From the NCBI RefSeq assembly GCF_019721995.1, contig NZ_BLYC01000020.1:1-62381 (forward strand): 62,381 nucleotides of DNA. The letters run 5' to 3'. The notes beneath the pieces were generated by a model, which saw only the letters and a list, made by a program, of their open reading frames with translations, had not been told where the DNA came from and did not search any database. Below are positions 2,174-62,337 of this stretch, in pieces; the stretch's first letter is position 1, and every line of letters starts with the position of its first letter. This DNA is from Bathymodiolus japonicus methanotrophic gill symbiont. Lineage in GTDB: Bacteria; Pseudomonadota; Gammaproteobacteria; Methylococcales; Methylomonadaceae. Made by a program: the position numbers and the translations under genes.

Positions 2174-2433
2174 CAGGCGCGCCATGCTACCTCACGAAAT
2201 TCCGGGACTCCTGTCGCCGTAATTCGTTCACCTACGCAGCGAATAGGAGATGCTCCAGCCGCCCTGCGTCCGCCACAGACTGAGCACAAAGCAGCTCAGT
2301 CATGGCTACCACAAATGGCTCTACGGCTATTCGGGATAAAATTTTAGCCTCCCTCGCGCGCTATCGCGCACTTCGGATTGGCAAATTTCCCTGCGCCTTC
2401 TGGAGACTATCAGCCCGTCCGGGGCTGACAGCG
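2174..2433 (+). repeat. Repeat A' (260-bp variant), copy 1
   Basis: Begins CAGGCGCGCCATGCTACC and ends GGGGCTGACAGCG. It is nearly identical to the copy at 17887-18146 and homologous to repeat A over the first ~90 bp. It lacks the TGATTTTCAGCG module of A and B and instead ends in a GC-rich hairpin (CAGCCC-GTCC-GGGGCTG). The next four bases are AAGG. It sits 3 bp outside the left IS66 terminus. Short ORFs inside it are not credible genes. Confidence 0.85.
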
Positions 2434-2608
2434 AAGGTAACTACTCAGCGTACGCTTAAAATCAGGGAAACGGAGCCTAAGCGGAGTGATGATTTTTAGT
2501 CTCTGGTAGGCGACAGGGCAATTCGCTGATCCGAAGTGCGCTAGTAGCGCGCGAGGGAGGCAAGAATTGCATTCCGAATAGCCGTCCAGCCATTTGAGGT
2601 AGACTTAA

Positions 2609-3152
2609 CCCATCTTCGTCACTTTCATCTTTCTAAGCCATTGATTCATCGGTTTAAGCGATTTTTTGTCGATAAATTCATTGACTTTTGTCAAAAAAAT
2701 CATCATTATTTGAGTGTAATTTACATGCGACAAAAATACTCTAAAAAATCCAACGTTTTATACAAAAACACAAAATCTGTAGTGCCAACGCTGAAAATCA
2801 GGGAAACGGAGCCTAAGCGAAGTGATGATTTTTAGTCCGCGATAGCCGTAGGGCCGTTATTTTGTCGGAGTCTGAGCGTTAGCGAAGGTGGAGACAAAAT
2901 AAAAGGCCATCCGACACGGCGTCAAGTCATTTGGAGCCTATGTTCCGACCCCTTGTTGGGTCGGGACGAGGTGACGAGGACGAATCGGGGCCGCCGGAGG
3001 CATAAGTGGTCGCGTTAAGTTTTTGCTGCTTGCTTGGGCTGGGATGCCCAAAACAAGCTTTCGCAAAAATAGCGACTCCCCAACTGGCTACCTTTTAAAA
3101 TTTCAACCAATTGATTTATAACAACTACATCATCAATAGTGACGAAGATGGG
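2609..3152 (+). mobile_element. MITE (repeat C) copy 1, with nested repeat B1
   Basis: Terminal inverted repeats CCCATCTTCGTCAC/GTGACGAAGATGGG, flanked by TTAA on both sides (2605-2608 and 3153-3156). It carries repeat B1 at 2789-3083. Compared with the 319-bp full copies it lacks about 70 bp between two short TTTTTGTCGA direct repeats, which suggests slippage deletion. Confidence 0.9.
2789..3083 (-). repeat. Repeat B copy 1 (295 bp)
   Basis: Runs CGCTGAAAATCAGGG to ACTCCCCAA. Inserted in MITE C1 so that GTGCC...CTGGC is restored exactly once the 295 bp are removed, with no target duplication. In canonical orientation the terminus CAGCG is followed by TTGG. Internal hairpins include AAAATCA/TGATTTT, TTTTGTC/GACAAAA and CCGACCC/GGGTCGG. 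Confidence 0.9.
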
Positions 3153-3536
3153 TTAACTGAGCAGGGTTTTGTGCGTAGTTGAGTAGTTGAGACGGACGCA
3201 GGGCGACCAGGGCATCTCCCATTCGCTGCGTAGGCGAATGAATGTTGGTGACAGGAGTCCCAGAATGTTGTGAGGTAGCATGGAGCGCCTGAATAATTAA
3301 AAAAGTTCTTGACAGGGTTTTAGTCTGGTTTTTGTGATTTTTAGTAAACTGCCCAACAGTCGATTAATCCACGCTTTATTGCTTCTATCGCTATAGTCAT
3401 CACAAAATGTCCCCTTAAACATCTACGACCTCGAAGAACTTTTTTACTCGCCTTACAATCGCTTAAAACAAGGAAAATTCGGGATTTAAAACCCATGAGA
3501 TAATAAGCCTGTCCTTAAAGCAATACAGGTTACCCT

Positions 3537-4056
3537 TTGAAAATAGACTTCATCGATGTTGATTCCGCAATCAGTCATGCCAAACAGTTACTTGAAACTG
3601 AGCGTGATATATCGCCTGCGCTAAAATCAGCACTGGAAGTGATTCTATTATTAGTCACGGTATTACTCAATCGAGTGACACTGAACAGCAAAAATAGCAG
3701 TAAACCACCTGCAAGTGATCCCAACCGTAAAAAAGGGAATCGAAAAAAATCAGATAAGCCTTCTGGCGGACAAAAATCGCATGTCGGCACGACACTTCAA
3801 AAAATAGATGACCCGGATGAAATCGAGATCATTACCATTGATCGCCGTACCTTGCCAAAAGGGCGATACACGGCAGATGGCTTTGAAACACGCCAGGTAT
3901 TCGATATTGATATCTCAAGGGTAGTGACAGAATACCAGGCGCAACGGTTGATAAATGAAAAAGGGCAGTGTTTTATCGCTCCTTTTCCAGATGAGGTTAC
4001 TAAGGCTGCGCAATATGGTAATGGGATAAAAGCCCACGTGGTTTATCTTTCGCAAT
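3537..4056 (+). pseudogene. IS66 transposase, N-terminal part
   Basis: A TTG start opens about 173 residues of an IS66 TnpC-type transposase: an N-terminal coiled region, a lysine-rich stretch with NSKNSSKPPASD (typical of IS66 N-termini), then the zinc-finger-like domain region up to HVVYLSQ. IS-X copy 1 cuts it at 4057; the remainder resumes at 8078. A 68-bp segment at the break (3989-4056) is present again at 8078-8145 with one visible mismatch (cacgtgg versus catgtgg). Confidence 0.85.
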
Positions 4057-5590
4057 CATCAGTGTTCCCATTGAAAGAAGAAGTACCTAAACAAAGCAGC
4101 CTATAACCTACCTGAAGGTAGCACCACTCGAATATTTCCATCTTTTTGATTTTAATCACTTATAACAGAAAATAGACACTCTGTAGGCACCGTAAAAAAA
4201 CAACAAATAATTTCAAATAAAGCTTGCAATTGCCGAAAAAATTTTTCTAAAAATTTCCGTTTTAATCACCTCATAAACGGATATCACCCATGCTTAAAGA
4301 CCTACCACTCTCTGAACATATTCACCAACACTGCAATGAAAGTATGGAACGTTCCCTGTTAGCAGAGCGTCATCCTTTGTGGGCTCGTTCATGCCCAGAG
4401 TTGAAGGATATCGACTTTATTCGCCTTGGGTTATTACGCTGTATCAGTGTAGTCGATAGTGGTCGCCATTTCCTCCAAACCAATGAACAGATTTATGGCC
4501 AGCTGCTTCCCCACTCAACGTATTTTAAATCACTGAAGTCGCATAGACGAACAAGTATGCTTGAGGCATTTGAACAGCAGAGCTATCATCTTCACGCTGA
4601 AACACTGCTGTCGCAAGGCATTGATTATCTTAAAGCATTCCCGGAACTTGACGAATACACCATAGAAGCAGCGGATGGACATTTTATTGATCATGCCTGC
4701 CATACTGAAAAAAACAGCAAGGGGAAAGTTTATGCGGCTGGGGGGATTTACGCGTTGAATCTCAGAAGTGGGTTGCTCAGATTTCTTTGTCTGGTGACAA
4801 ACGGAACTCAGAGGCATCAAGAAATACCTGTGTTACGAGATCATATTGAAAAGCAAAACAAGGGAAATAACAGCTCTCAGAAACATCTCTATGTCTACGA
4901 TAAAGCCGTCACCGACTTTGTCTGGTGGGATCGGCAGAAACGACATGCTAATTACATGATTTCAATGCTAAAAGAAAATTCAATTGCGACTCTGGTTGAG
5001 TCTATCCCTTTTGACTCCCGCCATGAGATCAATACAGGGGTTGAAGCATACAGTGTGTACGAAAACAAGGGCATCAAATTTAACGTGGTGGATTACCGTG
5101 ATCCAGAAACCGGAAAACTTCACCGGTTTGTGACAACCTTGCCAATGACTATTAACCCTGGAACCATTGCCATGCTGTATTTCAAGCGATGGACGATTGA
5201 AAAGACATTCAATAACACTAAAAGTAATTTCAAGGAAACTAAAGCTTGGTCTTCCAATACCCGCTCACTTGAAAATCAAATGCGCCTGACTGCAATGAGC
5301 TATAATTTAATGCGCGTGTTTGAAGAGAGTTCAAAAACACAACAGCCAGAATTGATTCATCCATCGGATAAAAAATATAGCGAGGCTCTGGAGATAAGGC
5401 AGCAACAGGCTCAAAAACGAGATCGTTTTGTGAATCCATTATTTTTCCAGGCAAGAATATCTCGTATCAGCTCGTATACCATTCGGGCAGTTCAAAACGC
5501 AATAATAACAGGAATGTCTTTACAGTGCTTTATGAGCTCTCTTGTGGCGAGGTTAGTTTCACGGCATCAATTGATAGGGGAACACTGATG
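4057..5590 (+). mobile_element. IS-X copy 1 (IS4 group, complete)
   Basis: 1534 bp from CATCAGTGTTCCC to GGGAACACTGATG. Inserted in the IS66 transposase. The right side abuts a repeat B copy that lacks its first bases, so no target duplication can be read. Confidence 0.9.
4290..5588 (+). CDS. IS-X transposase (IS4 family)
   Basis: 432 residues. The C-terminal half carries the IS4 signature Y-(2)-R-(3)-E-(6)-K in YFKRWTIEKTFNNTK (about residues 296-310). Upstream acidic residues fitting the DDE triad lie in EAADGHFID (about 129) and VYDKAVTD (about 209). It should catalyse cut-and-paste movement of IS-X. Its translation is identical to that of the copy at 6777-8075, so the two copies separated recently. 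The start is the ATG after a run of A/T-rich leader shared by all copies. Confidence 0.92.
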   Translation: MLKDLPLSEHIHQHCNESMERSLLAERHPLWARSCPELKDIDFIRLGLLRCISVVDSGRHFLQTNEQIYGQLLPHSTYFKSLKSHRRTSMLEAFEQQSYHLHAETLLSQGIDYLKAFPELDEYTIEAADGHFIDHACHTEKNSKGKVYAAGGIYALNLRSGLLRFLCLVTNGTQRHQEIPVLRDHIEKQNKGNNSSQKHLYVYDKAVTDFVWWDRQKRHANYMISMLKENSIATLVESIPFDSRHEINTGVEAYSVYENKGIKFNVVDYRDPETGKLHRFVTTLPMTINPGTIAMLYFKRWTIEKTFNNTKSNFKETKAWSSNTRSLENQMRLTAMSYNLMRVFEESSKTQQPELIHPSDKKYSEALEIRQQQAQKRDRFVNPLFFQARISRISSYTIRAVQNAIITGMSLQCFMSSLVARLVSRHQLIGEH

Positions 5591-5881
5591 GAAAATCAGG
5601 GAAACGTAGCCTAAGCGAAGTGATGATTTTTAGTCCGCGATAGCCGTAGGGCCGTTGTTTTGTCGGAGTCTGAGCGTTAGCGAAGGTGGAGACAAAATAA
5701 AAGGCCATCCGACACGGCGTCAAGTCATTTGGAGCCTATGTTCCGACCCCTTGTTGGGTCGGAACGAGGTGACGAGGACGAATCGGGGCCGCCGGAGGCA
5801 TAAGTGGTCGCGTTAAGTTTTTGCTGCTTGCTTGGGCTGGGATGCCCAAAACAAGCTTTCGCAAAAATAGCGACTCCCCGA
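5591..5881 (-). repeat. Repeat B copy 2, terminus lost
   Basis: Starts GAAAATCAGGG directly at the IS-X end, so the terminal CGCT is missing, and runs to ACTCCCCGA. The other side abuts an internal IS-Y sequence (AGTGATAATGG). Confidence 0.88.
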
Positions 5882-6404
5882 AGTGATAATGGAGTCATCC
5901 AGTGCAACCAATATGCGCCCATCTGTTTCAGGAGACGGAATCAGCTCCCAGATAGTTTTCCACAGCCCAGCCCACGGAAAAGTTGAAGAAGCCATGAAAG
6001 TGTAAAAGCGCTTATTCTTGATCTCAAACCCAAACAACGTATCAAGGCAACGCCAAAGATTAGATGTCATCGACGACGTAAAGGGAACGATAATAGACAG
6101 GATCGTGTAAACAAACAGAGAGGCTCGTTCGCGGCCTAAAGTGGTTTTGGAAAAATGATCTTGAAGCGGAAGTAAAGTATCGCGTAAAATGAACATGAAT
6201 GAGGCTGGTTTGTTTGTATAATCAATGTGTTAGAAACTTTCATTATACAGTAAAACTAGGCCTCATTCAAGATTAACCTGTTGTTTTTAAAAAGAATTCA
6301 AGGCTTTTAGTCAACGGAATGCCATTAATGTTAGTAATATCTAATATTTCAGAAAAATAAGCATTAGCTGATGTTCTTATGCTTTAAAAACTAGGAAACT
6401 TCAG
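5882..6404 (-). mobile_element. IS-Y fragment (IS4 group), 5' half of transposase
   Basis: The sequence matches 49255-49776 almost base for base, including the terminus CTAGGAAACTTCAG at 6404. On the minus strand it encodes the first ~110 residues of the IS-Y transposase (MFILRDTLLPLQDHF... from 6196) and is cut after DDSIIT by repeat B2. The catalytic C-terminal half is absent. Confidence 0.88.
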
Positions 6405-6530
6405 TTATGTGTGATTGCGGGGACTTTATTTTCTTTAAGTGACGCAATTGCCTATGTGATGCTGGCAACCATGCTGGCTGCGGCAGTGATTCTTTATCTG
6501 GGGCGCTATGTTGCCAGAGAAAAAGCATAA
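6405..6530 (+). pseudogene. C-terminal stub of a membrane protein
   Basis: The frame from the IS-Y end reads LCVIAGTLFSLSDAIAYVML, a further hydrophobic helix, then GRYVAREKA and TAA at 6528-6530. This looks like the last transmembrane segments and basic tail of a transporter, possibly MFS-type. The rest of the gene is not in the window. It lies between IS-Y and IS-X copy 2. Confidence 0.55.
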
Positions 6531-6543
6531 AGGCTATTAGAGC

Positions 6544-8077: not shown

Positions 8078-9329
8078 GATGAGGTTACTAAGGCTGCGCA
8101 ATATGGTAATGGGATAAAAGCCCATGTGGTTTATCTTTCGCAATATCAGTTATTGCCCTACAACCGAATACAGGAGTATTTCGCTGATCAATTAGGTATG
8201 CCGATTAGTGAAGGCTCTATCTATAATTTCAATGAACTGGCCTATGAGAAGTTGGCTGGGTTTGAAACTATCAGTAAAGAACACTTAGTCGAATCAGCGT
8301 GCATTCATGCGGATGAAACAGGCATTAATATTAATGGTAAGCGCCATTGGCTACATGGGGCCTCCAATGTTCAGTGGACACACTTCTTTCCCCATGCCAA
8401 ACGTGGCACAGAGGCAATGAATGACATTGGTATTTTACCCCATTTTCATGGGATTTTATGTCATGATCATTGGAAGCCCTACTATAAATATGATTGTACT
8501 CATTCGCTTTGTAATGCACATCATTTGAGGGAATTAACGCGCGCCTGGGAGCAGGATAAACAGGAGTGGGCGCTTGAAATGAAACGACTACTTGAAAAAA
8601 TGAATGATGCCGTCAATGAAGCAGGTGGCATGCTACTACATAAAGAAGCAGAAAATCGGGGAGTCGCTATTTTTGCGAAAGCTTGTTTTGGGCATCCCAG
8701 CCCAAGCAAGCAGCAAAAACTTAACGCGACCACTTATGCCTCCGGCGGCCCCGATTCGTCCTCGTCACCTCGTCCCGACCCAACAAGGGGTCGGAACATA
8801 GGCTCCAAATGACTTGACGCCGTGTCGGATGGCCTTTTATTTTGTCTCCACCTTCGCTAACGCTCAGACTCCGACAAAACAACGGCCCTACGGCTATCGC
8901 GGACTAAAAATCATCACTTCGCTTAGGCTACGTTTCCCTGATTTTCAGCGATGGAAGGTACAATACAGAGAATTACTTGGCAAAGCGGAGATCGAATGCC
9001 CACCACCCGATAAGCCTAAAGAAGTAAAACGGGAGCGAATAAAACGCAGTAAAGCTAGAAACTTACTGGAAAGGCTGATTAATTATGAAGAGGATGTCTT
9101 GCGCTTCATGACAAATACCTGGGTGCCATTTACCAATAATGCCGCAGAAAATTCGATTCGGATGACCAAGGTTCAACAGAAAATATCCGGCTGCTTTCGT
9201 AGCACCAAGGGTGCAGAGATATTTTGTCGTGTCAGAGGGTATTTATCAACGTGCCGTAAACAAGGTCTAAGTGCAACTCAGGCAATGACCTTGGTCTTTG
9301 AGGGAAAGTTACCTGAATTTGCTTTATAA
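8078..9329 (+). pseudogene. IS66 transposase, C-terminal part, interrupted by repeat B3
   Basis: From DEVTKAAQYGNG the frame runs through the IS66 catalytic core: HADETGININGK (first Asp), CHDHWKPYYKYD (second Asp), CNAHHLREL, then repeat B3 at 8656-8950, then WKVQYRELLGK, PFTNNAAENSIRM (catalytic Glu region) and the end PEFAL. Removing B3 keeps the frame exactly (gca gaa aaa tgg aag). The insertion introduces a stop, so no full-length transposase can be made. Confidence 0.88.
8656..8950 (+). repeat. Repeat B copy 3 (295 bp)
   Basis: TCGGGGAGTCGC at the left and TGATTTTCAGCG at the right, next bases ATGG. Precise insertion inside the IS66 transposase with no target duplication. Confidence 0.92.
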
Positions 9330-9364
9330 TTTCATTGAACTACTCAGCTTCGCTGAGTAGTTAC

Positions 9365-11675: not shown

Positions 11676-12725
11676 TTATATTTCTACAATATCAGAAATA
11701 TGCGTACCCTTAAATTTTATGATACTCGTTGCCCAGGACAAACCAACGCCAAATCCACATAATAGCAATTCCTTTTCTTCTTTTAAGCTATCCTTTAATT
11801 CACTGATAATTGTTAAAGGTATAGAAACTGATGAAGTATTACCAAATTTACAAATAGTTGAAGGGATTTTATCTTTATCAAACTTCACCTTTTTTCCTAA
11901 GTATGAATTGATATAATTATTAGCCTGATGAAAAACATAATAATCTAACTCAGCCTTGTGTTTATCAGAATATTTCAACATTTCTTTAATATCTTTGGGT
12001 ATTTCTCTAATAACAAAATTAAAGACATCAGCACCATTCATATACCCCTGTTCATCAGACCTGATATTACCATGTTCATCTACGACTTTTTCCTTAATCG
12101 TTTCCATTGAGCTTGGAGTTCTATAGCCACCGCCGTTTATTTTAATCAGTGCCTCTCTGGAGCCATCAGAATTTAATGAAAAATAACTTTCACCATATTT
12201 TTCATCCCTCTCAATTAATGCTGCGATACCAGCATCACCAAATATAAAGGCTGTCATTCTATCCTTTGCAGAATACACTTTGGAACGAGTTTCACCATTT
12301 AATAACAGGGCTTTTTTTAAGCCACTTTTTTCCATATAGGCATACACCACAGACAAACCATAAACACAGGCGCGCCATGCTACCTCACGAAATTCCGGGA
12401 CTCCTGTCGCCATAATTCGTTCACCTACGCAGCGGATGGGAGATACCCTGAACGCCCTGCGTCCGCAACGACTACGCACAAAAAAGCCGCTTCGTCATTA
12501 CTACCTCACTGGCTGGACGGCTATTCGGAATGCAATTCTTGCTCCTCTCGCGTGCTGCTAGCACACGTCGAATCAGCGAATTGCCCTGTCGCCTATCAGG
12601 GACTAGAAATCACCACTTCGCTAAGCTCCGCTTCCATGATTTTCAGCGAAGGCAGAGCAACCTAAGCTTAGATCAAACGCTAAGGTTTTAGTTGATAAGC
12701 CCAACCTATCTTGTAATATTACCAT
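11676..12725 (-). pseudogene. 3-oxoacyl-ACP synthase III (KAS III)-like, interrupted
   Basis: Piece 1 (12725-12649) reads ILQDRLGLSTKTLAFDL then LGCSAF, containing the catalytic Cys. Repeat A3 (12367-12648) intervenes. Piece 2 (12366-11676) resumes VYGLSVVYAYM and continues to the stop, with the His of FHQANNYIN and the Asn of FGNTSSVS completing the Cys-His-Asn triad. Removing A3 restores the frame exactly (GCSA-F-VYGL). The first ~90 residues are missing because IS-X copy 3 truncates the gene, yet the last bases of IS-X give an in-frame ATG. It heads a KAS III-SDR-NeuD operon, suggesting acyl-chain synthesis for a surface glycan or lipid. Confidence 0.85.
12367..12648 (+). repeat. Repeat A copy 3
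   Basis: CAGGCGCGCCATGC to ATGATTTTCAGCG, with small indels relative to the 280-bp consensus. Precise insertion in the KAS III gene without target duplication; the next bases are AAGG. Confidence 0.92.
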
Positions 12726-16027: not shown

Positions 16028-16048
16028 CACCATCACGAACCATTGATC

Positions 16049-17783: not shown

Positions 17784-18362
17784 CCCATCTTCGTCACTTT
17801 CATCTTTCTAAGCCATTGATTCATCGGTTTAAGCGATTTTTTGTCGAAAAATTCTCTTTAAAATCAATGGTGTTTTTTTTGAAAGTCAGGCGCGCCATGC
17901 TACCTCACGAAATTCCGGGACTCCTGTCGCCGTAATTCGTTCACCTACGCAGCGAATAGGAGATGCTCCAGCCGCCCTGCGTCCGCCACAGACTGAGCAC
18001 AAAGCAGCTCAGTCATGGCTACCACAAATGGCTCTACGGCTATTCGGGATAAAATTTTAGCCTCCCTCGCGCGCTATCGCGCACTTCGGATTGGCAAATT
18101 TCCCTGCGCCTTCTGGAGACTATCAGCCCGTCCGGGGCTGACAGCGTTTGTAGTGCCATTTATATTATTTTTGTCGATAAATTCATTGACTTTTGTCAAA
18201 AAAATCATCATTATTTGAGTGTAATTTACATGCGACAAAAATACTCTAAAAAATCCAACGTTTTATACAAAAACACAAAATCTGTAGTGCCAACTGGCTA
18301 CTTTTTAAAATTTCAACCAATTGATTTATAACAACTACATCATCAATAGTGACGAAGATGGG
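17784..18362 (+). mobile_element. MITE (repeat C) copy 3, with nested repeat A'
   Basis: 319 bp once the 260-bp A' insertion is removed. Ends CCCATCTTCGTCAC/GTGACGAAGATGGG, flanked by TTAA (17780-17783, 18363-18366). The uninterrupted target is visible in other IS-X copies. Confidence 0.95.
17887..18146 (+). repeat. Repeat A' (260-bp variant), copy 2
   Basis: CAGGCGCGCC to GGCTGACAGCG, inserted in MITE C3. The flanks GAAAGT and TTTGTAG rejoin to the undisturbed MITE sequence, so there is no target duplication. Confidence 0.92.
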
Positions 18363-24545: not shown

Positions 24546-25148
24546 CAGGCGCGCCATGCTACCTCACGAAATTCCGGGACTCCTGTCGCCATAATTCGTT
24601 CACCTACGCAGCGGATGGGAGATGCCCTGAACGCCCTGCGTCCGCAACGACTACGCATAAAAGCCGCGTAGTCATTACTACCTCACTGGCTGGACGGCTA
24701 TTCGGAATGCAATTCTTGCTCCTCTCGCGTGCTGCTAGCACACGTCGAATCAGCGAATTGCCCTGTCCCCTATCAGTGACTAAAAATCACCACTTCGCTA
24801 ACCCATCTTCGTCACTTTCATCTTTCTAAGCCATTGATTCATCGGTTTAAGCGATTTTTTGTCGAAAAATTCTCTTTAAAATCAATGGTGTTTTTTTTGA
24901 AAGTTTTGTAGTGCCATTTATATTATTTTTGTCGATAAATTCATTGACTTTTGTCAAAAAAATCATCATTATTTGAGTGTAATTTACATGCGACAAAAAT
25001 ACTCTAAAAAATCCAACGTTTTATACAAAAACACAAAATCTGTAGTGCCAACTGGCTACTTTTTAAAATTTCAACCAATTGATTTATAACAACTACATCA
25101 TCAATAGTGACGAAGATGGGCTAAGCTCCGTTTCCATGATTTTCAGCG
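24546..25148 (+). repeat. Repeat A copy 4, split by MITE C4
   Basis: 280 bp after removal of MITE C4 and one CTAA. Starts CAGGCGCGCC, ends TGATTTTCAGCG, next bases AAAG. Located upstream of guaB and downstream of the rubredoxin gene. Confidence 0.93.
24802..25120 (+). mobile_element. MITE (repeat C) copy 4
   Basis: 319 bp, flanked by CTAA (24798-24801, 25121-25124). The target TTCGCTAAGCTCC is the conserved terminal module of repeat A. Confidence 0.95.
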
Positions 25149-25252: not shown

Positions 25253-25547
25253 TTGGGGAGTCGCTATTTTTGCGAAAGCTTGTTTTGGGCATCCCAGCCC
25301 AAGCAAGCAGCAAAAACTTAACGCGACCACTTATGCCTCCGGCGGCCCCGATTCGTCCTCGTCACCTCGTCCCGACCCAACAAGGGGTCGGAACATAGGC
25401 TCCAAATGACTTGACGCCGTGTCGGATGGCCTTTTATTTTGTCTCCACCTTCGCTAACGCTCAGACTCCGACAAAACAACGGCCCTACGGCTATCGCGGA
25501 CTAAAAATCTTCACTTCGCTAAAGCTCCGTTTCCCTGATTTTCAGCG
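25253..25547 (+). repeat. Repeat B copy 4 (295 bp)
   Basis: TTGGGGAGTCGC to TGATTTTCAGCG, next bases AGTG. Ends 9 bp before the stop of the rubredoxin gene. Confidence 0.92.
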
Positions 25548-31682: not shown

Positions 31683-31977
31683 TCGGGGAGTCGCTATTTT
31701 TGCGAAAGCTTGTTTTGGGCATCCCAGCCCAAGCAAGCAGCAAAAACTTAACGCGACCACTTATGCCTCCGGCGGCCCCGATTCGTCCTCGTCACCTCGT
31801 CCCGACCCAACAAGGGGTCGGAACATAGGCTCCAAATGACTTGACGCCGTGTCGGATGGCCTTTTATTTTGTCTCCACCTTCGCTAACGCTCAGACTCCG
31901 ACAAAATAACGGCCCTACGGCTATCGCGGACTAAAAATCATCACTTCGCTTAGGCTCCGTTTCCCTGATTTTCAGCG
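31683..31977 (+). repeat. Repeat B copy 5 (295 bp)
   Basis: TCGGGGAGTCGC to TGATTTTCAGCG, next bases AATG. It lies in the nfeD gene, immediately followed by the last 120 bp of a repeat A; it may have inserted in that A copy before the A 5' part was lost. Confidence 0.92.
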
Positions 31978-32097
31978 AATGCAATTCTTGCTCCTCTCGC
32001 GTGCTGCTAGCACACGTCGAATCAGCGAATTGCCCTGTCGCCTATCAGGGACTAAAAATCACCACTTCGCTAAGCTACGTTTCCATGATTTTCAGCG
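31978..32097 (+). repeat. Repeat A copy 5, 3' 120 bp only
   Basis: Starts AATGCAATTCTTGCTCC, an internal A position, and ends TGATTTTCAGCG, next bases AAGG. Confidence 0.9.
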
Positions 32098-46302: not shown

Positions 46303-47313
46303 ATGTATATTTTAGGGATTGAAACCTCTTGCGATGAAACCGGCGTAGCACTATACCATAGTGATAAAGGCCTGATACAGCACAGCTTATATAGTCAGAT
46401 AGCGATGCATAATGAATATGGCGGCATAGTCCCAGAACTTGCATCACGCGATCATATTCTTAAATTGATCCCACTGATCGACGAATGTCTGCAACGTAGC
46501 CAGCTAACTAAATCCGCCATTCATGGCGTTGCCTACACCGCAGGTCCTGGGTTAATCGGTGCGCTGCTGGTCGGAGCAGCGACCGCCAAGAGTCTCGCCT
46601 GGTCACTGGGCATCCCGGCGATAGGTGTACATCACATGGAAGGCCATTTGCTTGCGCCTATGCTAGAAGCGCAACCACCAGAATTCCCCTTTGTTGCCCT
46701 GCTGGTCTCAGGCGGACATACGCTGCTGGTGGAAGTCAAAGATATTGGCCACTATCAACTGCTAGGCGAGTCGCTTGATGACGCAGCAGGCGAAGCCTTT
46801 GATAAGGCTGCCAAAATGCTCGGCCTTGCCTATCCTGGTGGTCCACTACTCGCAAAGCTTGCCGAGCAAGGCCAGGCAGCCCGATTTAAATTCCCCCGCC
46901 CGATGACCGATCGCCCCGGACTGGATTTCAGCTTTAGCGGACTAAAAACCTATACCATGAATACGCTAAATCAAACCGAAAAGACACCGCAAGACAAAGC
47001 TGATGTTGCGTATGCCTTTCAACAAGCAACAGCTGAAACACTGGCTATTAAATGCAAACGTGCGCTAAAACAAACTGGACTAAAGCGCCTCGTGGTCGCG
47101 GGAGGTGTTAGCGCCAATACCCGAATTAGACAGACGTTAACCACAATGACTGACAAAGAAGGAGCTGAAATATTTTTCCCCAGAGCTGAATTCTGCACTG
47201 ATAATGGCGCCATGATTGCTTATGCTGGCTGTCAGCACTTACTTGCCGGACAACAAGAATCTTTAAGTATTAGCGCCCGGCCACGCTGGCCAATTGATGA
47301 GCTCTATGCCTAA
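46303..47313 (+). CDS. tsaD: tRNA N6-threonylcarbamoyladenosine transferase subunit
   Basis: 336 residues of the ASKHA fold. [16 protein letters not shown] and the metal-binding [10 protein letters not shown] (His-x3-His) are the family signatures, with [11 protein letters not shown] and [13 protein letters not shown] forming the ATP site. With TsaB and TsaE it transfers threonylcarbamoyl to A37 of ANN-decoding tRNAs. Confidence 0.97.
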
Positions 47314-49813: not shown

Positions 49814-50090
49814 GTAACTACTCAGCGAAACTGAGTAGTTCAATGAAACTATAAAGCAAACTCAGGCAACTTTCCTTCAAAAACCAGCGTCATTGCCTGA
49901 GTTGCACTTAGACCTTGTTTACGGCACGTTGATAAATACCCTCGGACACGACAAAATATCTCGGCGCCCTTGGTACTACGAAAACAGCCCGATATTTTCT
50001 GATGAACCTTGGTCATCCGAATCGAATTTTCTGCGGCATTATTGGTAAACGGTACGCAGGCCTGTGTCATGAAGCGTAACACAGGTTCTG
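49814..50090 (-). pseudogene. IS66 right-end fragment with transposase tail
   Basis: Starts at the IS66 terminus GTAACTACTCAGCG. On the minus strand it encodes VLRFMTQACVPFTNNAAENS and the tail to PEFAL, about 80 residues closely similar to the copy ending at 9329. A CCTGTGT/ACACAGG hairpin marks its inner border. Confidence 0.82.
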
Positions 50091-50097
50091 TCGCAAT

Positions 50098-50259: not shown

Positions 50260-50289
50260 ATTCCTTCATAAGCCGACCACCCCCTGAGC

Positions 50290-51723
50290 TATAGACTTTC
50301 AGAAAGTTAATTTCCGAACAAACAAAAACGACAGAGGGGAAACTGGCTTATAATTTTCGTCCCAACACTAACGGAAACAGTCAAAAATGGTATCCCTCAC
50401 TTTTTCAAAGTCAATTGTAGACCGACTAAAAAAAAATATGGCGACAGCTCTCAAGCTAAGTAATATTTGTTTATATCGATTAACTCAAGCTCTACTCTGG
50501 TTCAGTGAATGCATGGGAATCAAAGAAATAGCACGCCTAATGGGAGTCTGTGAAAAAACCATTATAAATTGGCTGAAAACATTCATGCATAAAGGTGTCG
50601 GTTGGTTAATAGGGCAACACTATCAAGGACGTGGTCGGAAGTCAAAGTTAACTAAAGACCAGAAAAATAAATTGGTTGAGTTGATAAAGAAAGGCCCAGA
50701 AGACAATGGATTTCATTGTGGAATATGGAATACTGCGATGATTGCCGAGCTTATTTGGTTAAAATTTGAAGTTCGTTATAACTTGAACTATTTATCAAGC
50801 CTAATGAAAAAACTGGGCTTCAGTTATCAAAAAGCTCGTTTTGTGACTGATCGCCAAGAAGAAGAAAAGTACGAGCTTGAAAGAAAAACGTGGCTGGAAG
50901 AAACATTGCCTGCCATTATGGAAAAGGCGGTAGAAGAAAAGAGTGTCGTTTTATTCGGTGATGAGGTGTCATTTGCTATGTGGGGTTCATTGGCACGAAC
51001 CTGGGCTCCAATAGGAGAGCAACCCACAGTGAAAACATCAGGGATTCGAAAAGGGTTGAAAATGTTTGGTACGATCGAACTCGAAGGAGGGAGTTTTCAA
51101 TACCGAGAATCATTGGCTTATGAGATAAAACCAAAGTCACTTAGACTTTTAAAAGAAGCTGGGCTGCCTCAAGAATTTTTAGCTATTCTTAAAAGCTTAA
51201 AAAATGAGAAATATCCAACACAGAAGCTTTTTATGGAAGCGATATATTCTATTGCCGACAACGTCTTAATCGAGAGTTATAAGCCAATGATATTACAACA
51301 CGCTGAAACATCTGGGCGTTTTAATGGTGAAAGCTATGTTGAGTTTTTAACACAATTGCTGGCTTATTATAAAGGCAAGATTATTCTAATTGAAGATGGT
51401 GCCCCGTATCATGGAAGCGGTGTTATTAAGGAATTTAAGTTAGCTAATGTAGATCGTTTGACAGTAGAACGTCTCCCTGCGTTCTCGCCGGATTTTAATC
51501 CGATTGAGAAATTATGGAAAAATACGAAACGCGATTCGACTCATATGAAGTATTTTAAAACTTTTGAAGATCTTCATGATTCAGTTGTGCAAACTTTTAA
51601 CACTTATATGCATGATGCCAGTAAAGTGATTTGTGTTATGCAAAAATTGCGGGAAGATTTCGTTGTTACCGCCTAAGTTTAAGCGCTCCAAATTTGGAAA
51701 TTATTTATCTGAGAAACTATATA
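50290..51723 (+). mobile_element. IS630-family IS, copy 1
   Basis: Left end TATAGACTTTCAG..., right end ...CTGAGAAACTATA with imperfect inverted repeats of about 26 bp (both contain TTAATTTCC or TAATTTCC inward). TA at each border fits the TA target of IS630. It directly precedes the ZIP transporter gene. Confidence 0.82.
50387..51676 (+). CDS. IS630-family transposase
   Basis: 429 residues. An N-terminal helix-turn-helix (ECMGIKEIARLMGVCEKTIINWLKTF) precedes the DDE_3 domain: VVLFGDEVSFAMWG (first Asp), KIILIEDGAPYHGS (second Asp), SPDFNPIEKLWKNTK (Glu). Intact. Identical over the shared part to the inverted copy at 52741, apart from rare changes (QKNK versus QKNR). Confidence 0.93.
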   Translation: MVSLTFSKSIVDRLKKNMATALKLSNICLYRLTQALLWFSECMGIKEIARLMGVCEKTIINWLKTFMHKGVGWLIGQHYQGRGRKSKLTKDQKNKLVELIKKGPEDNGFHCGIWNTAMIAELIWLKFEVRYNLNYLSSLMKKLGFSYQKARFVTDRQEEEKYELERKTWLEETLPAIMEKAVEEKSVVLFGDEVSFAMWGSLARTWAPIGEQPTVKTSGIRKGLKMFGTIELEGGSFQYRESLAYEIKPKSLRLLKEAGLPQEFLAILKSLKNEKYPTQKLFMEAIYSIADNVLIESYKPMILQHAETSGRFNGESYVEFLTQLLAYYKGKIILIEDGAPYHGSGVIKEFKLANVDRLTVERLPAFSPDFNPIEKLWKNTKRDSTHMKYFKTFEDLHDSVVQTFNTYMHDASKVICVMQKLREDFVVTA

Positions 51724-51747
51724 CTAGATTTCTTTAATCCTAAAAAC

Positions 51748-52560
51748 ATGAACTTACTATTTTTAATTATTATTTTTACTGCCTTAGGTGGTGTCTTAAG
51801 CGTCTTGGCAGCCTCTGTATTTTTATTATTATCTGATAATATGCGCGCTAAAGTATTACCCCACGGCGTGAGCTTTGCCACCGGTGCCTTGCTAGCTGTT
51901 GCCTTTTGGGGCTTGATCCCTCATGCCTTTGAAGAAGTCGGTGCTGAGCAGATACAGTCCTTATCAGGCTTTATTATGCTGGGTTTGTTAATGTTTTTTA
52001 TTCTGGAAAAACTACTCATTTGGCGACATTGCCATTCAGGCAACTGTGAAGTACATGGAGAGTTTGATGAACACGATCATGGACATGCGCATAGCTCACA
52101 CAAGTCAGCCGGCACGATGATTATTATCGGTGATGGCATCCATAACTTTGTTGACGGAGTGCTGATTGCTGCTGCATTTTTAACCGATGTACAATTGGGC
52201 ATTGTTACCAGTCTAGCGGTAGCTGCTCATGAGATACCGCAGGAAGTCGGTGATTTTGCTATTTTATTACATAGCGGATACTCTAAAGCTAAAGCCCTAC
52301 TTTACAATATTCTGGCTAGCTTAACTACCATCATCGGAGGTGTTTTAGCCTATTACAGCCTGGATGGTTTGCAGGATAGCCTACCTTATTTTCTTGCACT
52401 GGCATCTTCAAGCTTCATATATATTGCAGTCGCCGACCTGATTCCAACCCTGCATAAAAAAACCGACATTAAGTCTTCCCTCCAACAAATTACTTTAATT
52501 CTCTCTGGCGTAGGATTGATTATGTTGTTGCATGGTGTTGCCCACGATATTCATCTCTGA
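51748..52560 (+). CDS. ZIP-family divalent metal transporter
   Basis: 270 residues, about eight membrane segments. The ZIP metal site is present: IGDGIHNFVDGVLIAA (HNFxDG) and SLAVAAHEIPQEVGDFAI (HEIPQE). A His-rich loop (EHDHGHAHSSH, about residue 112) binds metal in the cytoplasm. It likely imports Zn2+ or Fe2+. The ATG at 51748 is chosen because the longer frame begins inside IS630. Any native promoter upstream has been displaced by the IS, which ends 24 bp before the ATG. Confidence 0.93.
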   Translation: MNLLFLIIIFTALGGVLSVLAASVFLLLSDNMRAKVLPHGVSFATGALLAVAFWGLIPHAFEEVGAEQIQSLSGFIMLGLLMFFILEKLLIWRHCHSGNCEVHGEFDEHDHGHAHSSHKSAGTMIIIGDGIHNFVDGVLIAAAFLTDVQLGIVTSLAVAAHEIPQEVGDFAILLHSGYSKAKALLYNILASLTTIIGGVLAYYSLDGLQDSLPYFLALASSSFIYIAVADLIPTLHKKTDIKSSLQQITLILSGVGLIMLLHGVAHDIHL

Positions 52561-52692: not shown

Positions 52693-53868
52693 ATATATAG
52701 TTTCTCAGATAAATAATTTCCAAATTTGGAGCGCTTAAACTTAGGCGGTAACAACGAAATCTTCCCGCAATTTTTGCATAACACAAATCACTTTACTGGC
52801 ATCATGCATATAAGTGTTAAAAGTTTGCACAACTGAATCATGAAGATCTTCAAAAGTTTTAAAATACTTCATATGAGTCGAATCGCGTTTCGTATTTTTC
52901 CATAATTTCTCAATCGGATTAAAATCCGGCGAGAACGCAGGGAGACGTTCTACTGTCAAACGATCTACATTAGCTAACTTAAATTCCTTAATAACACCGC
53001 TTCCATGATACGGGGCACCATCTTCAATTAGAATAATCTTGCCTTTATAATAAGCCAGCAATTGTGTTAAAAACTCAACATAGCTTTCACCATTAAAACG
53101 CCCAGATGTTTCAGCGTGTTGTAATATCATTGGCTTATAACTCTCGATTAAGACGTTGTCGGCAATAGAATATATCGCTTCCATAAAAAGCTTCTGTGTT
53201 GGATATTTCTCATTTTTTAAGCTTTTAAGAATAGCTAAAAATTCTTGAGGCAGCCCAGCTTCTTTTAAAAGTCTAAGTGACTTTGGTTTTATCTCATAAG
53301 CCAATGATTCTCGGTATTGAAAACTCCCTCCTTCGAGTTCGATCGTACCAAACATTTTCAACCCTTTTCGAATCCCTGATGTTTTCACTGTGGGTTGCTC
53401 TCCTATTGGAGCCCAGGTTCGTGCCAATGAACCCCACATAGCAAATGACACCTCATCACCGAATAAAACGACACTCTTTTCTTCTACCGCCTTTTCCATA
53501 ATGGCAGGCAATGTTTCTTCCAGCCACGTTTTTCTTTCAAGCTCGTACTTTTCTTCTTCTTGGCGATCAGTCACAAAACGAGCTTTTTGATAACTGAAGC
53601 CCAGTTTTTTCATTAGGCTTGATAAATAGTTCAAGTTATAACGAACTTCAAATTTTAACCAAATAAGCTCGGCAATCATCGCAGTATTCCATATTCCACA
53701 ATGAAATCCATTGTCTTCTGGGCCTTTCTTTATCAACTCAACCAATCTATTTTTCTGGTCTTTAGTTAACTTTGACTTCCGACCACGTCCTTGATAGTGT
53801 TGCCCTATTAACCAACCGACACCTTTATGCATGAATGTTTTCAGCCAATTTATAATGGTTTTTTCACA
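52693..53868 (-). mobile_element. IS630-family IS, copy 2, truncated by repeat B6
   Basis: Inverted relative to copy 1, with the same end (TATATAGTTTCTCAG). It runs through the transposase to codon ~57 (V-CEKTIINWLK) and stops at repeat B6 at 53869. The left end of the IS is absent. Confidence 0.88.
52741..53868 (-). pseudogene. IS630 transposase lacking its N-terminus
   Basis: Retains the DDE domain (363 residues from the first internal Met) but lacks the first ~57 residues including much of the DNA-binding helix-turn-helix, so it is expected to be inactive. Confidence 0.87.
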
Positions 53869-54163
53869 CGCTGAAAATCAGGGAAACGTAGCCTAAGCGA
53901 AGTGATGATTTTTAGTCCGCGATAGCCGTAGGGCCGTTGTTTTGTCGGAGTCTGAGCGTTAGCGAAGGTGGAGACAAAATAAAAGGCCATTCGACACGGC
54001 GTCAAGTCATTTGGAGCCTATGTTCCGACCCCTTGTTGGGTCGGGACGAGGTGACGAGGACGAATCGGGGCCGCCGGAGGCATAAGTGGTCGCGTTAAGT
54101 TTTTGCTGCTTGCTTGGGCTGGGATGCCCAAAACAAGCTTTCGCAAAAATAGCGACTCCCCGA
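53869..54163 (-). repeat. Repeat B copy 6 (295 bp)
   Basis: CGCTGAAAATCAGGG to GACTCCCCGA. In canonical orientation CAGCG is followed by TGTG, the IS630 codons. The other side is IS-Y, so a deletion accompanied or followed insertion. Confidence 0.92.
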
Positions 54164-54900: not shown

Positions 54901-54914
54901 TTAAAAAATTTTTA

Positions 54915-55190: not shown

Positions 55191-55199
55191 GCCAGACAA

Positions 55200-55720
55200 A
55201 TGCCAGGTTACCCTCAAACTTTGCTAGAGTTTCAACATCTTTTTCCTGATGAGGCAGCTTGGTATCAAACGTTACGACACCGCGTTCCTTATGCTACACA
55301 AGCTACGTCCAGCGATGGTTCGAGGTGGACGAAACCTTCATTGGTGGTGCAACACAGGGAGAGGGGCGTGGGAAACACCACAAAACGCTTGTTGCAGGCG
55401 CGCCATGCTACCTCACGAAATTCCGGGACTCCTGTCGCCATAATTCGTTCACCTACGCAGCGGATGGGAGATGCCCTGAGCGCCCTGCGTCCGCAACGAC
55501 TACGCACAAAAGCCGCTTCGTCATTACTTCCTCACTGGCTGGACGGCTATTCGGAATGCAATTCTTGCTCCTCTCGCGTGCTGCTAGCACACGTCGAATC
55601 AGCGAATTGCCCTGTCGCCTATCAGGGACTAAAAATCACCACTTCGCTAAGCTCCGTTTCCATGATTTTCAGCGTCGGCATGGTAGAAATCCTTCTACGT
55701 AAAAAGCACTTGGCTCTGAC
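55200..55720 (+). pseudogene. IS1595-family (ISXO2-like) transposase remnant with repeat A6
   Basis: YPQTLLEFQHLFPDEAAWYQ is the typical N-terminus and, in another frame, VQRWFEVDETFIGGATQGEGRGKHHKTLV is the DxE-containing IS1595 core start. After removal of repeat A6 the frame continues VGMVEILLRKK. The zinc-finger region between the two parts is deleted and the C-terminus is missing. Confidence 0.75.
55395..55674 (+). repeat. Repeat A copy 6 (280 bp)
   Basis: CAGGCGCGCC to TGATTTTCAGCG, next bases TCGG. Inserted precisely in the IS1595 remnant (KTLV-VGMVE rejoins in frame), no target duplication. Confidence 0.92.
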
Positions 55721-57493: not shown

Positions 57494-57595
57494 ATAATAA
57501 TTCTTTCCTAATTTTGTACTTATCTACACCAAATTCTTTTACAATAATGCTTATTTTTTAAAACGCAGTAAATCTTACAACGTGTTGTTGCAACT

Positions 57596-58426: not shown

Positions 58427-58450
58427 CTTAAATCTTTAATCAATTTTACT

Positions 58451-59173
58451 ATGTATTTTCGTCAAATTTTCTTGATTTCCTGTTTGAGTGCGATTGCTGC
58501 AAGTGTCGGCTTTAGTATTTATCAATGGTACCTGGTCAATCCGATCATTTTTTCTGCTGAACTGTATGAGATAGCCGAGCCGATAGATTCAGGTATGCTA
58601 GAGCAGCTTGAACCCTGGGAGCCAGAGGATGGTATTGAGCGCAGTGTGTATACTCTGCTGGCGAATTTCCTGATGGCGCTGGCCTACAGCCTAATACTCG
58701 CTAGCGCCATGGTTTTCCGTGGCTCCAGTTCGACATTAAAAGGAATTGCCTGGGGGATGGCGGCTTATTTATCGGTGTTTGTTGCCCCTGGCTTAGGCTT
58801 GCCACCTGAAATTCCGGGTATGGACGCTGCAGAGTTAGCACAGCGCCAGAACTGGTGGCTGCTGACAGTCAGCCTCACTGTAATTGGCCTGGCGGTGCTT
58901 GCATTTAGTTCGCGATACTATAAAGGCGCGGGGCTGATACTGATAATATTGCCGCATTTAATCGGTGCTCCGACAGCTGAAATTCATAGCTTTAATCACC
59001 CAGACCCAGGTACGATAGCGGTCTTAACCGAGTTATGGCACCAGTTTGTTCTGCAAACCAGTATCGCCAATGCTTTACTATGGTTTATAATCGGTGCTAG
59101 CACCGGCTTTTTAAACCACAAATTTATTGATGCTGTGCCGTCCTTACAATCTTCAAAATTTACTAAGGCTTAG
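58451..59173 (+). CDS. cbtA: CbtA-family predicted cobalt transporter subunit
   Basis: 240 residues, about five membrane segments (FLISCLSAIAASVGFSIYQW; ANFLMALAYSLILASAMVF; GMAAYLSVFVAPGLGLPPEIPG; VSLTVIGLAVLAF; SIANALLWFIIGASTGF). APGLGLPPEIPGMDA and HPDPG are conserved in CbtA. The family is predicted to import cobalt for cobalamin, mainly from its association with B12 regulation; there is no room for a cobalamin riboswitch in the 24 bp upstream. Confidence 0.85.
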   Translation: MYFRQIFLISCLSAIAASVGFSIYQWYLVNPIIFSAELYEIAEPIDSGMLEQLEPWEPEDGIERSVYTLLANFLMALAYSLILASAMVFRGSSSTLKGIAWGMAAYLSVFVAPGLGLPPEIPGMDAAELAQRQNWWLLTVSLTVIGLAVLAFSSRYYKGAGLILIILPHLIGAPTAEIHSFNHPDPGTIAVLTELWHQFVLQTSIANALLWFIIGASTGFLNHKFIDAVPSLQSSKFTKA

Positions 59174-59175
59174 AT

Positions 59176-59361
59176 ATGCATACTAATAACTCTGCTTCAC
59201 TGGAACATAGCGCTCCAGTTGTTGCTACAAAGAGTCTGCAGCTGTTTGCTGCGGCAGCTCTTGGACTTGTTATTCTATTTAGCGTGGGATTTGCGCCTAT
59301 GGATATAGCGCATAATGCTGCACATGATACCCGCCATAGCGTTGCATTTCCCTGTCATTAA
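59176..59361 (+). CDS. cbtB: CbtB-family small membrane protein
   Basis: 61 residues, one membrane segment (LQLFAAAALGLVILFSVGFA) and a His-bearing tail (DIAHNAAHDTRHSVAFPCH). CbtB accompanies CbtA; the histidines may bind cobalt. Starts 2 bp after cbtA. Confidence 0.87.
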   Translation: MHTNNSASLEHSAPVVATKSLQLFAAAALGLVILFSVGFAPMDIAHNAAHDTRHSVAFPCH

Positions 59362-59378
59362 TGTAGAGCGGACTTCAG

Positions 59379-59658
59379 CAGGCGCGCCATGCTACCTCAC
59401 GAAATTCCGGGACTCCTGTCGCCATAATTCGTTCACCTACGCAGCGGATAGGAGATGCCCTGAACGCCCTGCGTCCGCAACGACTACGCACAAAAGCCGC
59501 TTCGTCATTACTACCTCACTGGCTGGACGGCTATTCGGAATGCAATTCTTGCTCCTCTCGCGTGCTGCTAGCACACGTCGAATCAGCGAATTGCCCTGTC
59601 GCCTATCAGGGACTAAAAATCACCACTTCGCTAAGCTCCGTTTCCATGATTTTCAGCG
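59379..59658 (+). repeat. Repeat A copy 7 (280 bp)
   Basis: Inserted in a short palindrome: GCGGACTTCAG and TCCGCTATAA rejoin to a sequence like that at 38999-39018. CAGCG is followed by TCCG. No target duplication. Confidence 0.93.
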
Positions 59659-59689
59659 TCCGCTATAATTGCGCGCCAGCAATTAAGAC

Positions 59690-60523
59690 TTAATCGTATA
59701 GAGTCGGAATAGGCTGGCGCTTATGTTGCGTATGCTGAAAGGTCTGAATGATTAATCGACTTACGTTTTCAACAACCGGCTTCCCTTCCAGAAAATCATC
59801 CAGCTGATCATAACTTAATCCCAGTGCATGTTCATCGGTTTTACCTGGCGCCAGATCCTCAAGGTCTGCAGTAGGTGCTTTTGTTATCAATAGTTCAGGG
59901 GCACCCAAAGTTTTAGCGAGTAATCTTACCTGACGTTTATTCAAGCCAAACAACGGCGCGAGGTCACAAGCACCATCGCCCCATTTAGTAAAAAACCCCG
60001 TGATATTTTCAGCCGAATGATCGGTGCCAATAACTAGCGCGTCTACTAAGCAAGCTATCTCATACTGAGCAATCATGCGAGCGCGGGCCTTGACATTGCC
60101 TTTACTAAAATCCAGTTTTTCAGCGGATGCGATCTGCAGTCCTGTAGCATTTATTGCCCGACATGTTTCTGCGTGAATAGTATCAACACCAGCATGCACA
60201 TTTATTGTCATATTTTGCCCAGGTTGAATAAATTCTATGGCCAGTTGCGCATCACTTTCATCGGCTTGAATATTGTAAGGCAGGCGTACTGCGATAAACT
60301 GGTATTCACTACTATGTGCTTCTTTATTTAACTGTTCAATCGCTAATTGTGCCAGGCGGCCACAAGTTGCTGAATCTATGCCGCCGCTGATACCTAATAA
60401 TAATTTTTTCAGGCCGGAGCTTTTCAGTTGCTGCTTGATAAAATCAATACGTCGCTGAACTTCAAACTCAGGCTCTATCTGCGGAAGCACTTTCATTTCT
60501 TCTATGATGTCTTTTTGATTCAT
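59690..60523 (-). CDS. nadE: NAD+ synthase, ammonia-dependent type
   Basis: 277 residues, a stand-alone synthetase without the glutaminase domain. The ATP pyrophosphatase P-loop is [12 protein letters not shown] (about residue 44), followed by [20 protein letters not shown] and [14 protein letters not shown]. It converts nicotinate adenine dinucleotide, ATP and ammonia to NAD+. Confidence 0.96.
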
Positions 60524-60875
60524 GGGGTCTATTAACGAGGCTAGTGGGTCTGGTAGCTTGGAAGCGTTATTATATTTTACGATTAATTGTATCTGAGTTA
60601 GCGGGCATAAGTGCTAAAATATTCATCAGTGTTCCCATTGAAAGAAGAAGTACCTAAACAAAGCAGCCTATAACCTACCTGAAGGTAGCACCACTCGAAT
60701 ATTTCCATATTTTTGATTTTAATCACTTATAACAGCAAATAGACACTCTGTAGGCACCGTAAAAAAACAACAAATAATTTCAAATAAAGCTTGCAATTGC
60801 CGAAAAAGGTTTTCTAAAAATTTCCGTTTTAATCACCTCATAAACGGATATCACCCATGCTTAAAGACCTACCAC

Positions 60876-61170
60876 CGCTGAAAATCCTGGAAACGGAGCT
60901 TTAGCGAAGTGAAGATTTTTAGTCCGCGATAGCCGTAGGGCCGTTGTTTTGTCGGAGTCTGAGCGTTAGCGAAGGTGGAGACAAAATAAAAGGCCATCCG
61001 ACACGGCGTCAAGTCATTTGGAGCCTATGTTCCGACCCCTTGTTGGGTCGGGACGAGGTGACGAGGACGAATCGGGGCCGCCGGAGGCATAAGTGGTCGC
61101 GTTAAGTTTTTGCTGCTTGCTTGGGCTGGGATGCCCAAAACAAGCTTTCGCAAAAATAGCGACTCCCCGA
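60876..61170 (-). repeat. Repeat B copy 7 (295 bp)
   Basis: CGCTGAAAATCCTGG to GACTCCCCGA. Flanks CTACCAC and TCTCTGAAC are contiguous in other IS-X copies, proving a 295-bp insertion without duplication. In canonical orientation CAGCG is followed by GTGG. Confidence 0.95.
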
Positions 61171-62057
61171 TCTCTGAACATATTCACCAACACTGCAATG
61201 AAAGTATGGAACGTGCCCTGTTAGCAGAGCGTCATCCTTTGTGGGCTCGTTCATGCCCAGAGTTGAAGGATATCGACTTTATTCGCCTTGGGTTATTACG
61301 CTGTATCAGTGTAGTCGATAGTGGTCGCCATTTCCTCCAAACCAATGAACAGATTTATGGCCAGCTGCTTCCCCACTCAACGTATTTTAAATCACTGAAG
61401 TCGCATAGACGAACAAGTATGCTTGAGGCATTTGAACAGCAGAGCTATCATCTTCACGCTGAAACACTGCTATCGCAAGGCATTGATTATCTTAAAGCAT
61501 TCCCAGAACTTGACGAATACACCATAGAAGCAGCGGATGGACATTTTATTGATCATGCCTGCCATACTGAAAAAAACAGCAAGGGGAAAGTTTATGCGGC
61601 CGGGGGGATTTACGCGTTGAATCTCAGAAGTGGGTTGCTCAGATTTCTTTGTCTGGTGACAAACGGAACTCAGAGGCATCAAGAAATACCTGTGTTACGA
61701 GATCATATTGAAAAGCAAAACAAGGGAAATAACAGCTCTCAGAAACATCTCTATGTCTACGATAAAGCCGTCACCGACTTTGTCTGGTGGGATCGGCAGA
61801 AACGACATGCTAATTGCATGATTTCAATGCTAAAAGAGAATTCAATTGCGACTCTGGTTGAGTCTATCCCTTTTGACTCCCGCCATGAGATCAATACAGG
61901 GGTTGAAGCATACAGTGTGTACGAAAACAAGGGCATCAAATTTAACGTGGTGGATTACCGTGATCCAGAAACCGGAAAACTTCACCGGTTTGTGACAACC
62001 TTGCCAATGACTATTAACCCTGGAACCATTGCCATGCTGTATTTCAAGCGATGGACG

Positions 62058-62337
62058 CAGGCGCGCCATGCTACCTCACGAAATTCCGGGACTCCTGTCG
62101 CCATAATTCGTTCACCTACGCAGCGGATGTGAGATGCCCTGAGCGCCCTGCGTCCGCAACGACTACGCACAAAAGCCGCTTCGTCATTACTACCTCACTG
62201 GCTGGACGGCTATTCGGAATGCAATTCTTGCTCCTCTCGCGTGCTGCTAGCACACGTCGAATCAGCGAATTGCCCTGTCGCCTATCAGGGACTAAAAATC
62301 ACCACTTCGCTAAGCTACGTTTCCATGATTTTCAGCG
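62058..62337 (+). repeat. Repeat A copy 8 (280 bp)
   Basis: CAGGCGCGCC to TGATTTTCAGCG. Flanks GATGGACG and ATTGAAAAG are contiguous in other IS-X copies, proving a 280-bp insertion without duplication. Confidence 0.95.

Follow-up and report, generated by a model that had tools for sequence, protein, structure and literature searches.

Group II introns combine exact insertion with a bias towards the lagging-strand template, and copies consisting only of the HEARO/omega RNA occur in other bacteria. Enzymes of the IS200/IS605 family use subterminal hairpins and act on the lagging-strand template, and the foot of repetitive extragenic palindromic (REP) sequences reads GT[AG]G (both as given in excerpts of PMC6006769). 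Here we compare with these systems a repeated element found in contig NZ_BLYC01000020.1 of the Bathymodiolus japonicus methanotrophic gill symbiont (Methylococcales, assembly GCF_019721995.1; the whole analysed stretch of 62,381 nt is hereafter called the window). A preliminary description of this DNA had noticed that repeats ending in CAGCG are followed by a G at the fourth downstream base (+4). We find that this +4 G is a property of the target. The repeats, designated A, A', B and D, belong as families to a single non-autonomous mobile element, and its body is, judged by covariation, a conserved structured RNA of 260–310 nt without an open reading frame (ORF).

Families A (280 nt), A' (260 nt), B (295 nt) and the rarer D share a common architecture, which is best seen on the strand complementary to that first described. 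Written in the RNA sense, its order is target C-N-N-N ^ CGCUG-[hairpin]-UAGUC-...-[3' hairpin] ^ target (CGCTG and TAGTC in DNA), and the '+4 G' is the complement of a near-obligatory target C at position -4, located 5' of the RNA-sense start. This C was present in 151 of 154 A and B copies, 54 of 55 A' copies, all three D copies and one of two further single matches, the other of which looks like chance. An ORF-bearing body was seen in no copy read, the covariance model introduced below detecting only relatives with the same 5' domain. An alignment of 13 divergent copies yielded a consensus of 39 base pairs, 25 of them with changes on both sides. Paired cells amounted to 93.1 % versus 75.6 % (standard deviation 1.2) in shuffled alignments and 36–46 % with the partner slid by 1–3 columns, a comparison that favours the structure as the consensus was derived from the same alignment. 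Two-sided cells numbered 96 versus 32 in shuffles, and further pair types 49 versus 43.7, with 19 of 500 shuffles attaining the observed 49. Across 19 B-type copies the consensus energy was -44.3 kcal/mol in the RNA sense versus -21.5 kcal/mol on the opposite strand, with 128 G-U cells versus 12 A-C cells on the RNA-sense strand. Single-sequence folding, which is weaker evidence, placed B below its shuffles on both strands (z -3.9 and -3.2) and A on neither (z -0.35 and +1.7). The first hairpin carries a C-NNN-GA pattern resembling a kink-turn in 43 of 46 loci from other genomes. At gathering score, Rfam recognised nothing in the window but a tRNA, and the element attracted only chance matches at permissive thresholds; the flanks were not richer in hairpins than random sequence. 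The copies are about 98.6 % identical and lie outside long ORFs more often than random positions do. Some ORFs that enter the opposite strand of the element (L318, L320, L323) pick up ends such as SLRSPWR, which may be a source of spurious protein termini.

Throughout the genome, 712 exact termini (TTTCCNTGATTTTCAGCG) precede NNNG and nine precede NNNH, and the +4 G was accordingly retained in 712 of 721 cases, although its genome-wide loss had been named at the outset as the outcome that would speak against it. With up to two mismatches allowed, the terminus matched 1009 times, compared to zero for a reversed-pattern control. Base composition was determined in an 862-kb sample consisting of the C1, C2 and C3 stretches and the window, in which 162 ends represent 157 distinct flanks, 154 of them with +4 G; at other CAGCG sites the background frequency of this base is 24.6 % of 1678. 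Position +1 was found to be A in 52 %, G in 24 %, T in 22 % and C in 3 %, while +3 is C in 8 % and +5 is G in 5 %, all others being almost flat. Given this composition, the earlier statement that +1 is A or T (14 of 15) has to be replaced by '+1 rarely C'. The opposite (5') flank contains no motif past the first bases of the element itself (A n=61, B n=83), in agreement with the one-sidedness initially proposed. In the window, 14 of the 15 junctions first listed are genuine family termini and all 14 carry the G; the fifteenth (TACG, around 2450) does not represent an A terminus on the plus strand. Its GTAACTACTCAGCG recurs at 9351 on the minus and at 49823 on the plus strand with C at +4, and the junction instead belongs to an element on the minus strand, with a terminus mutated to AAGCG and a flank that likewise reads TACG. 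A further match at 46581 is a chance match and was excluded from all counts. The sites at 9351 and 49823 are palindromes of the form GTAACTACT-CAGCG-AAR-CTGAGTAG, a separate CAGCG repeat, and similar hairpins of the form CGCTG-AGTAGTTAC are found in some loci with pieces of IS200-like genes.

The two flanks of 180 full-length copies (A 50, B 79, A' 51) were joined and an element-free relative of the site was sought in the available sequence of the same genome, with success for 89 copies. In 79 of these 89 the relative continues through the junction with no base duplicated or lost, 74 of the 79 at an identity of at least 95 %. Of these exact empty sites, 75 contain the +4 G, the remainder being three T and one A. 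As the element-free relatives already have the G in 75 of 79 cases, it is not brought by the element; the insertion-site preference originally suggested is thereby confirmed, and the idea that the G belongs to a longer terminus fails.

To follow the element into other genomes, we used a covariance model of its first 136 nt, which begins at CGCTG and does not include the -4 base. It matched 57 of 121 Methylococcales genomes (own genome included) and 35 of 369 class-level genomes, corresponding to 28 of 272 genera; these 35 include the own genome and two further Methylococcales. From each of 46 other genomes one locus was compared, the best matches being taken first. The -4 position holds C in 45 of these loci and T in the remaining one, and the foot reads CGCT[GA] in 45 and GGCTG in one, which shows that the preference common to A, B and A' also reaches beyond this symbiont. 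Inside three single genomes the -4 C was seen in 20 of 21, 11 of 11 and 11 of 11 copies. The same families occur in Bathymodiolus methanotroph symbionts among the matches listed; a pattern scan of contigs returned at least 63 stretches with many chance matches, of which only the Bathymodiolus-symbiont and Methylococcaceae rows were used. Phages gave no match to the element, six stretches of viral contigs did, and the plasmid matches comprise four records from Methylomonas (two), Methylobacter and Methyloprofundus, with no annotated feature under any match (one record being unannotated). ORFs adjoining the element in other genomes (8 and 14 loci) were inspected by eye and showed nothing recurrent, and a literature search found no description of the element.

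Judged by local GC skew, the RNA-sense strand coincides with the leading-strand sequence, and hence with the lagging-strand template, in 145 of 180 copies, with similar values for A (40/50), B (63/79) and A' (42/51). The exact insertion, this strand bias, the hairpin beside the conserved flank and the one-sided target together point to single-strand insertion at replication forks by a trans-acting enzyme, a nickase, whose recognition signals would be the 5' hairpin and C(-4), an explanation to which we give about an even chance of being correct. The enzyme would recognise both features and insert a single strand at the fork, and replication would afterwards convert this strand to double strand, which would explain why no target duplication is seen. 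C(-4) would be its sole strict requirement, with the avoidance of C at +1, of C at +3 and of G at +5 as weaker preferences. Of the single-strand or guided integration envisaged in the preliminary description, the single-strand part hence receives support from the exact insertion without duplication and from the replication-strand bias, albeit indirectly and short of proof. Since Y1_Tnp matches were detected in 12 of 12 element-rich genomes tested, a Y1 enzyme of another subclass may act as the mover.

Several observations weigh against single-strand insertion by such an enzyme. No moving enzyme was found among the TnpB, IscB, Y1, REP-associated tyrosine transposase (RAYT) and reverse transcriptase (RT) candidates examined. 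Only two of the 22 Y1 matches in the genome are near full domain length, an IS200-like 113-aa ORF and a RAYT-like gene, and the ends of the repeated element carrying the IS200-like ORF appear by eye unlike CGCTG-hairpin-TAGTC. Elements do lie near Y1 fragments in the own genome, with a D copy abutting one at C29:14420, a proximity we read as chance given the copy density. Among 30 Y1 loci examined in 12 element-rich genomes, drawn from the matches listed, the sole element match at E<0.001 is an insertion inside a Y1 gene. The RAYT-like gene does not track the element either, as the listing shows no match to it for 16 genomes that carry the element (G024, G028, G036, G040, G048, G060, G063, G066, G072, G076, G078, G082, G086, G090, G096 and G100). 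Targets of IS200/IS605 elements furthermore comprise four to five fixed bases and not one, an element moving as DNA only would not need the entire RNA fold, and the strand bias equally fits reverse splicing of an RNA. Finally, the best relative of ten of the 89 copies has no gap-free junction, showing gaps near the junction at 79–92 % identity, and four exact empty sites out of 79 have another base at +4. In the 30 loci of other genomes no Y1 gene was found beside an element, apart from the one with the inserted copy. A Y1 element with the same ends was recognised neither in the 22 own Y1 loci, inspected by eye amid many element copies, nor in the 30 loci of other genomes, in a survey that was not exhaustive.

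Instead of a DNA strand handled by an enzyme, the folded RNA could itself be the mobile form, either in the manner of a short interspersed nuclear element (SINE) or as a ribozyme reverse-splicing into the single-stranded lagging template, and be copied by an RT supplied in trans; we consider this unlikely, albeit the most serious of the alternatives. It would make sense of an element that is a covarying RNA over its whole length with a kink-turn-like pattern in its first hairpin, and exact insertion without duplication together with the lagging-template bias fits as well. The B end away from the conserved base also fits, as its last two bases vary as they might with untemplated ends (TC 46, TT 18, GC 8, AC 3, CG 2, AT 1 and AG 1, n=79); on the top strand they are the opening dinucleotide, as at window positions 8656 and 25253. 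This dinucleotide is little linked to the otherwise tightly linked subfamily sites (strongest p=0.008, next 0.028, uncorrected for multiple tests), yet 36 B insertions with five different end dinucleotides among them are exact in length, so that it is neither target-derived nor simply inherited, and untemplated addition of the two bases is one reading. The ends of A and A', however, are invariant, with CA in 43 of 43 exact cases, and a precise 5' end would require processing. A suitable RT is lacking as well, since four of the five RVT_1 matches in the genome are defence or retron RTs and the fifth, which has an in-frame stop, looks like a fragment of a group II RT; group II or other mobile RTs were for this reason rejected as movers. 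Rfam gave no ribozyme match, and an intron was rejected as joining the flanks exactly produced ORFs of at least 150 aa in 61 of 135 cases versus 50 for mismatched joins and 47–48 for joins one base off (both strands). The defence-type RTs are encoded on the small contigs L173, L175, L176 and L177 and comprise UG17, a Drt3a/Drt3b pair and a type VI-like retron RT. At C1:23374 and C1:24851 (within L012), A' elements lie exactly at the CCCC end of B elements, reflecting either repeated insertion at one position or a B-A' pair moving together.

The element might also be the guide RNA of an IscB-, IsrB- or TnpB-like nuclease without its gene, with the C/G at position 4 as target-adjacent motif, which we regard as improbable. 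A degenerate, one-sided flank motif is typical of such systems; for an IscB-type RNA, however, the motif is expected on the 3' side of the RNA, where the flank of the element is featureless. TnpB (PF07282) was not found in the genome although the control was positive in 6 of 14 genomes, the RRXRR domain of IscB was not found either in a search whose control likewise matched nowhere, and Rfam gave no HEARO match. No evidence was found for the guided part of the initial suggestion.

That the host's TnpA-REP (Y1) protein spreads the element like a REP hairpin repeat appears very improbable to us. The many copies placed preferentially outside long ORFs, the hairpin with a conserved foot and the Y1_Tnp matches mentioned above are in line with it, as is the RAYT-like 222-aa gene of this genome (L158:1150-1920). 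The foot reads CGCT[GA] and not GT[AG]G, though, and the element is 260–310 nt in length. The RAYT-like gene, moreover, is flanked by GGGGACG-[CT]TACCC repeats, which are absent from the 862 kb searched, and not by element copies in the stretch read; as it does not co-occur with the element, we rejected it as the mover. Least probable is that the G merely ends a longer element or marks survivorship, i.e. that only copies with G remain intact or are able to move once more: an invariant base close to a terminus may indeed belong to it and old copies may be survivors, but the first form is refuted by the empty sites and the second hardly accounts for 98–99 % G among copies this similar.

The copies in the window are compiled in Table 1. 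Several of them reside in a miniature inverted-repeat transposable element (MITE) with ends CCCATCTTCGTCACT...AGTGACGAAGATGGG and a CTAA duplication (window ~24802-25120, from 2609 on, and others), which is also a source of empty sites. Positions 50549-51723 and 52694-53868 hold two inverted copies of 1175 nt, 100 % identical, that carry a DDE_3 transposase and surround a ZIP-family metal transporter gene (51631-52560) in a layout resembling a composite transposon, and a B element adjoins the outer end at 53869.

Table 1. Element copies in the window, with the position of the CAGCG terminus followed by +4 G and the flank read outwards from it.
Copy	Coordinates	Strand	Terminus with +4 G	Flank and remarks
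A', 260 nt	2174..2433	+	2433	3' flank AAGG
Older A-like copy, terminus mutated to AAGCG	2453..2608 (end approximate)	-		TACG; other end cut by MITE
B, 295 nt, within a MITE	2789..3083	-	2789	TTGG
B without CAGCG end, beside transposase-bearing repeat	5592..5881 (approximate)	-		left out of counts
B, 295 nt	8656..8950	+	8950	ATGG
A, 282 nt	12367..12648	+	12648	AAGG
A', 260 nt, within MITE	17887..18146	+	18146	TTTG; element-free relative GAAAGT^TTTGTAGTG
A, split by MITE (~24802-25120)	24546..25148	+	25148	AAAG
B, 295 nt	25253..25547	+	25547	AGTG
B, at a 5'-truncated A copy	31683..31977	+	31977	AATG
A, 3' remnant	31978..32097	+	32097	AAGG
B, 295 nt	53869..54163	-	53869	TGTG
A, 280 nt	55395..55674	+	55674	TCGG
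A, 280 nt	59379..59658	+	59658	TCCG
B, 295 nt	60876..61170	-	60876	GTGG; element-free relative known
A, 280 nt	62058..62337	+	62337	ATTG

In one genome this ORF-less RNA element of 260–310 nt amounts to 1,009 counted ends of two families, and it is present in 28 of the 272 class-level genera sampled, yet it has neither an Rfam match nor, among the candidates examined, a mover. Its chemistry can be tested directly, because the one-base target rule comes with natural insertions in the hundreds and empty sites in the dozens. We tentatively suggest, at somewhat less than even confidence, that it represents a class of bacterial mobile elements that consist entirely of a conserved structured RNA. 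This class would be widespread in Gammaproteobacteria, amplified here to about 1,000 ends of the A/B families alone, and would move by a new mechanism, possibly with the RNA as intermediate or enzyme cofactor. It would then be the prokaryotic equivalent of SINEs, locating its target through one base that lies three bases away from the cut. If the RNA is such an intermediate or cofactor, this would be a new route by which non-coding RNA spreads in bacteria, and if the folded RNA is itself the mobile form, the element would constitute a new class.

Compared with the described systems, the element departs in an examined defining feature from every named family amenable to testing. From MITEs of the DDE type it differs by the absence of both terminal inverted repeats and target duplication. 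With IS91/Helitron elements it shares the lack of duplication, a hairpin at one end and a conserved flank at one end, although this flank consists of a single base at distance four. ORF-less group II introns resemble it as RNA elements with exact insertion and lagging-template bias, but the element has no Rfam ribozyme domains, a one-base target and no splicing signature in genes, and its genome contains only a broken RT fragment. HEARO and IscB omega-RNA-only copies are likewise ORF-less mobile structured RNAs present in many copies, whereas the element has no Rfam match and carries its flank motif on the opposite side, in a genome without TnpB and with no IscB found (silent control). Like REP sequences and REPINs mobilised by TnpA-REP, it occurs in hundreds of copies with a hairpin on a conserved foot and no internal transposase, but its foot is not GT[AG]G, it is several times longer and the RAYT of its own genome does not co-occur with it. 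From IS200/IS605 elements and their non-autonomous derivatives, the palindrome-associated transposable elements (PATEs), it is set apart by a body of covarying RNA and by its target. These elements insert next to a fixed tetra- or pentanucleotide that borders the 5' end of the strand being transferred, and the element uses a single obligatory base three bases off the junction, with -3 to -1 variable; a partner Y1 gene with the same ends was not recognised in the loci surveyed. With this same group it nonetheless shares a hairpin near the end, the absence of target duplication, a one-sided target flank and the lagging-template bias, with exact insertion in 79/89 and the strand bias in 145/180 copies. 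We therefore class it with the non-autonomous mobile elements of the single-strand type, which it resembles in how it works.

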